A stretch of DNA of 64,000 nucleotides, from assembly GCF_021233435.1 (NCBI RefSeq), contig NZ_CP089468.1, forward strand, positions 620,001 to 684,000, written 5' to 3'. A model generated the notes under the pieces. That model was not told the origin of the DNA and did not search any database. It saw nothing but the letters and a program-made list of their open reading frames with translations. Made by a program: the position numbers and the translations under genes. The DNA is from Halobacterium noricense (GTDB lineage: Archaea > Halobacteriota > Halobacteria > Halobacteriales > Halobacteriaceae). Below are positions 53,552-53,920 of the stretch, one piece after another. The first letter of the stretch is position 1; each line of letters begins with the position of its first letter.

Positions 53552-53626
53552 AGCGGGATGGGATAGCCAGGAGATTCCGCCGGGCTCATAACCCGGAGAT
53601 CGGTAGTTCAAATCTACTTCCCGCTA
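53552..53626 (+). tRNA. Initiator tRNA-Met (CAT)
   Basis: The gene folds as a full cloverleaf of 75 nt. The acceptor stem AGCGGGA/TCCCGCT begins with the A1-T72 pair that marks archaeal initiators. The anticodon arm CCGGG-CTCATAA-CCCGG has three G-C pairs next to the loop, the second initiator mark, and anticodon CAT. There is no intron. CCA is not encoded (A73 is followed by CTT). It starts translation at ATG and GTG codons. The sequence agrees with the known haloarchaeal initiator, as far as I recall it. Confidence 0.95.
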
Positions 53627-53628
53627 CT
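53606..53628 (+). repeat. Direct repeat copy 1: initiator tRNA 3' end
   Basis: This 23-bp sequence, from the T-loop through the acceptor 3' strand and two bases beyond, recurs identically at 53805-53827. With one mismatch the match extends four bases further (CTCT). Copy 1 is part of the functional tRNA. Confidence 0.85.
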
Positions 53629-53637
53629 TCTCTCAAC

Positions 53638-53682
53638 GTCGCGCCGCGTAGCCCGGCGTTTCATCGCCAGGCGTGCCGCGAC
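53638..53682. repeat. First hairpin downstream of the initiator tRNA
   Basis: GTCGCG (53638-53643) pairs with CGCGAC (53677-53682), and inside it GCCCGGCG pairs with CGCCAGGC around a TTTCAT loop (one mismatch). It begins about 11 bp after the tRNA end. Confidence 0.45.
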
Positions 53683-53691
53683 AACGTGCGT

Positions 53692-53826
53692 GTAGCGAAG
53701 TGGATTTGAACCCTGCCAGACGCAGCCGAGCGGAGTTCTCGTGAGTGAAGCGAGCGAGAGCACGCCAGAGCTTGCTCTGGCGGCGCGAGGACCGTCTGGC
53801 TCCGGTTCAAATCTACTTCCCGCTAC
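53692..53826. repeat. Long imperfect hairpin bounded by tRNA 3'-end sequence in both orientations
   Basis: The left arm (53692-53722) is the antisense and the right arm (53793-53826) the sense version of the initiator tRNA 3' end plus GCCAGACG/CGTCTGGC. They pair over about 30 bp with one mismatch, a 3-nt gap and a small internal loop. The enclosed 70 nt hold CGCCAGAGC-TT-GCTCTGGCG (53763-53782, perfect) and TCTCG/CGAGA. The whole could fold as a branched RNA, or be a small non-autonomous element. Confidence 0.6.
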
Positions 53827-53827
53827 T
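53805..53827 (+). repeat. Direct repeat copy 2: initiator tRNA 3' end without the rest of the tRNA
   Basis: Identical 23 bp to 53606-53628, 199 bp downstream. There is no D-arm or anticodon arm upstream, so it is not a tRNA gene. The bases just before it belong to the long hairpin. Confidence 0.85.
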
Positions 53828-53849
53828 CCTCTAAAACTCACACTCCACA

Positions 53850-53899
53850 GCGTCGCCTCTCTGCGACGCGTCACGTGAGATTGTACGAAGTCGTGACGC
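53850..53899. repeat. Two chained hairpins between the tRNA region and the flippase gene
   Basis: GCGTCGC-6 nt-GCGACGC (53850-53869) shares bases with GCGTCACG-16 nt-CGTGACGC (53868-53899). Only one can form at a time, which resembles a switch or a bidirectional terminator. They end about 20 bp from the stop of the convergent flippase gene. Confidence 0.4.
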
Positions 53900-53920
53900 C
53901 GTTTCTCCGCCCCCAGCAGT

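Follow-up and report, generated by a model that had tools for sequence, protein, structure and literature searches.

Integron attC cassettes form tandem units that each end in a folded single-strand palindrome with internal loops; their order differs among relatives, and they insert beside a fixed receiving site. REP/RAYT and IS200/IS605-type systems use strand-specific folded DNA hairpins as recognition sites. Integrative elements of tRNA 3′ ends, such as those of the SNJ2, pR1SE, and HSTV2-type haloarchaeal integrases, insert there, regenerate the gene, and leave a direct repeat of its end. Nonautonomous derivatives flanked by att sites (CIME-like) also insert at a tRNA end and restore the gene, and they can stack in tandem. 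Archaeal integrases prefer tRNA 3′ ends (PMC8371274). MITEs, PATEs, and small mobile repeats, as surveyed in Haloquadratum, are short, palindromic, noncoding, multicopy mobile DNA of haloarchaea (PMC3119063). The locus described here is part of a 64,000-nucleotide stretch of the 3.3-Mb genome of Halobacterium noricense (the window). We lean toward reading it as a member of a class-wide haloarchaeal family of tiny, nonautonomous mobile cassettes that are site-specific at gene 3′ ends with a GTTC(R)A core; as part of this best explanation, the preferred target would be above all the T-loop of tRNA genes. This family of small folded DNA cassettes is apparently new to the literature: a description of such units was not found in the open-access literature searched.

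The target gene in the window is the initiator tRNA-Met(CAT) at 53552–53627 on the + strand, and all further features are given on this strand. The inserted unit is noncoding, has a length of 199 bp, and spans 53607–53805, as judged by gapped alignment to the empty site of the congener G011. It consists, in this order, of the tRNA 3′ end, a trailer hairpin (53638–53682), an antisense copy of the tRNA 3′ end (GTAGCG--AAGTGGATTTGAACC, 53692–53712), which coevolves with the tRNA end across 175 homologous units, and a stem-loop. The conserved stem II of the latter is formed by GCCAGACG at 53715–53722 and CGTCTGGC at 53793–53800. In the cassette model, the 3′ 20 nt of the tRNA (53607–53626) would be the first part of the inserted unit, and the second sense copy of the tRNA 3′ end at 53805–53825 would be the pre-insertion tRNA end. 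The ancestral tRNA trailer with its two hairpins, displaced by the insert, follows at 53826–53899 and aligns directly behind the tRNA in G011. A different short dispersed repeat with approximate boundaries (53735–53784) is nested in the apical loop of the stem-loop; similar nesting of further short hairpin repeats can be appreciated in different genera (L331, L116, L324, and L053).

The first-pass annotation of this region had listed a 23-bp identical second copy of the tRNA end, an antisense version from 53692 that pairs with this copy, and three further hairpins, with no ORF to account for them. The repeats were recovered as described: the direct copy 53606–53636/53805–53835 extends over 31 nt at 94% identity, the first 23 nt being identical, and the antisense end pairs with the second copy through inverted repeats of 15 to 16 nt at 93 to 94% (I2 and I3). 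The 199-bp unit holds no credible ORF, and an integrase gene within the element is therefore absent. The hairpins at 53638–53682, 53850–53869, and 53868–53899 are all present, either in the minimum-energy fold or directly readable; the latter two, however, lie outside the insert and are assigned to the ancestral tRNA trailer because G011, with its empty site, carries both. The region 53628–53910 folds on the + strand with −134.1 kcal/mol (z = −5.96; none of 200 shuffles was as good) and on the − strand with z = −3.1. A search of the window and related loci against Rfam matched no family except tRNA.

Comparison of occupied and empty sites yielded a precisely empty site in G011. Relative to this congener, the window differs by a single, clean insertion of 199 bp within the 3′ end of the tRNA, beyond which both genomes stay aligned through the old trailer and its hairpins. 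Among 13 congeners, sampled as one genome per species and as draft assemblies, the initiator tRNA-Met site holds none to two intact units, in some cases together with decayed ones. The host gene is kept intact, and empty, single, and tandem states exist. Intact copies match the tRNA allele of their own species: the orthologous unit occurs in G008 (CTACTT) and in G002 and G009 (CCACTT), and each copy fits its own tRNA. Hence, gene and copies undergo concerted evolution. The insertions at the Met site have two polarities with respect to the ancestral trailer (G000 versus G008 and G009); one simple integration step does not account for both, which counts against the cassette reading. In G004, the initiator tRNA is directly followed by what reads as a TnpB-type insertion sequence in place of the hairpin units (L029).

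The same design—tRNA end, trailer hairpin, antisense end, stem-loop, and second end—stands behind many other tRNAs, including those for Ser, Gly, Val, Arg, Glu, His, Lys, Phe, and Asp, with arms that fit the local tRNA. These units measure 60 to 200 bp, compared with 199 bp in the window. Within 450 bases downstream, the cognate tRNA 3′ end recurs 56 times in three congeneric genomes, and the 3′ end of another tRNA gave one match in 2198 trials in the same genomes. Chance or low complexity as the source of the repeats is ruled out by this noncognate control and by reversed-pattern controls. Occupancy varies at orthologous tRNAs. The Glu-CTC unit is found only in G000 among G000, G010, and G008, and the Glu-TTC units number one, one, and three in these genomes. 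The His units number two, one, and zero in the first stretch searched, with the His unit of G008 lying further out behind other DNA.

The search for similar copies beside tRNA genes of haloarchaea, suggested in the first-pass annotation, was strongly positive. With a short probe, matches are obtained in 178 of the 292 Halobacteria genomes, representing 55 of 77 genera, and the reversed pattern gives about zero; an exact scan of 85,000 species finds the unit essentially in Halobacteria only. In a phylum-wide sample, all matches of a covariance model for the inner stem-loop fall in Halobacteria, save for a weak one. The inner model R1 places 35 of its 49 matches in three genomes less than 1.2 kb downstream of a tRNA on the strand of the tRNA and none on the opposite strand. 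The inner loops are shared across sites: 46 of 69 near-identical pairs sit at different tRNA ends. At the same time, nearest neighbors by inner loop share their tRNA in 47 of 175 cases, against 6% by chance. The units are therefore inherited in place and, in addition, move from one site to another. On a plasmid of Haloarcula halophila (NZ_CP119561.1, locus L314), a unit at 1439–1569 lies within the T-arm of an apparent tRNA-Cys gene, which it splits; on this plasmid, at least 17 tRNA genes form an array next to a TROVE-domain protein.

The unit stem-loop also stands 3′ of a protein gene, which we take from its sequence to encode a member of the enolase superfamily. This case comprises one locus and its orthologues, and the individual units a, b, c, and d can be told apart. 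Their order is a-b-c in G008; a-b-c with a broken c in G002; a-b in G011; a-b, decayed, in G005; c-a followed by an apparent start of b in G000; and c-d-b in G010. A paralogue in G009 carries c alone, and no unit is present in four genomes. At every position and in every species, a unit retains a gene end of its own together with the matching inverted copy and its loop, so that the combination is stable, while position and order change. The travelling unit therefore comprises these three parts. The end of each unit restores Phe-Asp-(Glu/Pro)-Ala-stop (FDEA*/FDPA*) with differing codons. Within it, the inverted copy belongs to the preceding end. In tRNA units with differing ends, the antisense arm pairs with the preceding end at 22 discordant positions and with the following end at 13, a count that includes a few alignment-affected rows and in which the last copy of the gene end is less constrained. 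Overall, a unit is composed of a replacement gene 3′ end, a trailer hairpin in the case of tRNAs, an inverted copy of the end, and a stem-loop with covarying stems, and runs to the next gene end copy. Another protein gene of the window's genome, with the reading GIGARQYYKQKLGYRQDGPYVSK and presumably Elp3-like, has about 68 bp of its 3′ end duplicated around a hairpin-rich noncoding insert of some 200 bp (L040, C1:1899300–1900800, about 463–1036); the logic is as in the tRNA units, but the insert is a different one.

Constraint on the stem-loop acts on one single strand, that in gene-sense orientation. The antisense arm is complementary to the tRNA end at T-loop position 59 in 166 of 175 units (103 expected by permutation) and at position 57 in 155 of 175 (114 expected), and stem II is fully complementary in 123 of 163 units (29 expected). 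This per-position test was used in place of a ranking by duplex energy in which each antisense arm was compared with every tRNA end (median rank 7 of 68; controls 36); that ranking is only partly specific because the T-loop part is common to tRNAs. Compensatory base changes in the stems, which the first-pass annotation had proposed as a check, are strong. In curated alignments, 95 to 98% of cells are paired; double-change cells number 112 versus 34 in shuffled alignments and 0 to 23 when the partners are slid by one to three columns, and a second count on curated alignments gives 64 versus 20. With position 57 set aside, transitions in the antisense arm leave G.T at 72 of 525 sites and A.C at three of 308. 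The alifold consensus is −28.6 on the + (tRNA-sense) strand and −18.6 on the − strand. The apex is mostly a C-GNA-G triloop (128 of 175 units, versus 19 in shuffles and six on the other strand), often flanked by tandem G.A. GNRA tetraloops are not enriched at the apex of the 175 units, which rules out a GNRA-type RNA motif. The DNA mini-hairpin d(GCGAAGC), or GCGNAGC, is the classic case of extraordinary stability (PMC4686876).

These data bear on the possibility that the unit is a structured RNA, namely a co-transcribed tRNA trailer whose hairpin with the duplicated end would regulate termination, folding of the tRNA, or processing at its 3′ side, or would give rise to a small RNA. Every tRNA-linked unit lies on the tRNA-sense strand downstream of the gene, as such an RNA would, and the strong covariation with G.T tolerance suits RNA as well as a single DNA strand. 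However, the apical loops are GNA triloops instead of GNRA or UNCG, a DNA-type preference that argues for folded DNA over RNA without proving it. Furthermore, arrays of the same design stand behind a protein gene in shuffled order, the number of units varies at orthologous tRNAs—which suggests no essential role—and Rfam yields no match. We therefore regard this explanation as unlikely, and the form in which the first-pass annotation had raised it, a structured RNA that competes with tRNA processing, as less likely than a mobile element.

The conserved stem-loop is not restricted to gene ends. Some other dispersed repeats that have no tRNA contain it as well (L385 and L356), and part of the structure is therefore not specific to these units, a point against the cassette reading. 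Dispersed structured repeats of about 200 bp framed by GAAAGCCC...CCTTTCAATCC are present in some 20 copies in the window's genome (L223, L219, L365, L385, and L359); some of them contain the unit stem-loop, and none has an Rfam match in the loci scanned. A second palindrome type lies downstream of the tRNA-Ala(GGC), Arg(CCT), Arg(GCG), and Gly(TCC) genes of G000 (L080, L091, L113, and L083); its arms match the acceptor end, and its GNA hairpin forms on the opposite strand. This type (inner GTCTCGTTCGCT..CTCACGAGAC; Ala-GGC and Arg-CCT) is mainly a dispersed repeat with 20 copies in the window's genome and was excluded from the main claim. The idea of a retroelement with a tRNA primer-binding site was rejected by inspection, as the antisense copies do not start with TGG, the complement of CCA.

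The related stem-loops in dispersed repeats, together with arms that are local and an inner loop common to different tRNAs, as in the 46 of 69 near-identical pairs above, would also fit a mutational by-product. Here, REP- or MITE-like hairpin repeats would insert close to the end of a gene, which would then be copied in both orientations by template switching or replication fold-back, so that the arms stay matched. Against this stands that the units of the protein gene keep their own version of the end with the matching antisense across species and positions; the end therefore travels with the unit and is not copied afresh at each insertion. Every end copy there also restores the reading frame and the stop. 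Such a by-product is quite unlikely, and the cassette reading remains the preferred one.

Ordinary integrative elements occur in the same genome. Elements of 16, 2.6, and 27 kb are integrated at tRNA-Leu(TAG), Val(GAC), and Val(TAC), respectively; the 16-kb element carries an integrase. The latter element (L219, C1:1776870–1792900) has the integrase adjoining the tRNA and an exact att repeat. The far ends of all three elements feature neither an antisense arm nor a stem-loop or palindrome. At two of the three sites, a unit lies beyond the element, so that the elements are on the tRNA side of the units. The units are therefore not simple scars of these elements. Repeated insertion at one spot, which the first-pass annotation had suggested as the scar of integration events, does hold for the units, but an origin from the integrase-bearing elements examined does not. 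No unit was found in 2.9 million viral contigs, the single match in phage records was spurious, and both matches in plasmid collections are plasmid-borne tRNA genes with a unit; together with the position of units beyond element ends, this led us to reject a remnant of an integrated virus or plasmid. The near-absence of units from viral, phage, and plasmid collections also counts against the cassette reading. Although archaeal integrases prefer tRNA 3′ ends and three such elements are integrated in this very genome, scars of attachment sites left by proviruses or plasmids that were later deleted are very unlikely in view of these element ends, the unit-free viral contigs, and the constancy of unit size and internal order across many tRNAs and genera, which remnants of random deletion would not show.

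The small mobile element with the tRNA end as its terminus, the other suggestion of the first-pass annotation, is well supported by empty and occupied sites, tandem arrays, reordering, and presence at many tRNAs in many genera. A trans-acting tyrosine recombinase would move such cassettes, exchanging strands at G^TTC between the gene end and the cassette, which would probably be circular, and the folded single strand of the cassette would be the recognized site. The newest unit would adjoin the gene, as in an integron cassette array, and selection or conversion would then hold the gene end copy equal to the local tRNA and the antisense copy complementary to it. Genomes of the genus contain five to 16 Phage_integrase matches each, none of them linked to units; it is possible that an integrase from this set acts in trans. 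As the cassettes carry no genes, a selfish existence as passengers of host or virus integrases is most likely. If this holds, a whole archaeal class carries tens of such structures per genome at its tRNA gene ends, and site-specific recombination by way of folded single-stranded DNA would be known from a second case, independent of the first. The units would also be convenient markers of recent recombination and would make it possible to study how the 3′ ends of genes remain usable as integration sites. The reading is directly testable in genetically tractable haloarchaea.

Compared with the described systems, the units feature characteristic differences. They share the direct repeat of the tRNA 3′ end and the intact tRNA with tRNA 3′-end integrative elements but are only 60 to 200 bp long, carry no integrase or genes, and have, in addition, an antisense copy of the target and a conserved stem-loop. 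MITEs and PATEs, similarly short and palindromic, are tied to transposase ends or fixed terminal inverted repeats (PMC3119063); the latter are lacking here, as judged by arms that differ from one host gene to the next, and insertions cluster at the ends of genes. The folded, strand-specific hairpins resemble those of REP/RAYT and IS200/IS605-type systems, yet duplication and replacement of a gene end set the units apart from those systems. As in integrons, tandem units each end in a folded palindrome and are inserted beside a fixed receiving site. The stem-loop can be folded from one strand with compensatory stems and would serve as the recombination site, and cassettes are gained, lost, and reordered at one receiving site, as can be appreciated from the orders a-b-c, a-b, c-a, c-d-b, and empty and from the empty site of G011. 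The units differ from integron cassettes by having no ORF cargo and arms specific to the host gene, by using a gene 3′ end as the receiving site, and by a core of (G)GTTCRANTC/GANTYGAACC, whose fourth base C departs from the attC core GTTRRRY/RYYYAAC. In 13 genomes, no integron integrase (TIGR02249) exceeds the cut-off of 265 bits, the best match reaching 48 bits. We tentatively raise the possibility, which we hold somewhat short of probable, that this is a cassette-array system unlike any described, in which gene 3′ ends—those of many tRNAs and of some protein genes—serve as receiving sites at which a putative recombinase captures, stacks, and shuffles folded single-stranded hairpin cassettes, each supplying a replacement for the gene end together with the inverted copy of it, the logic of the integron having evolved independently on tRNA genes.
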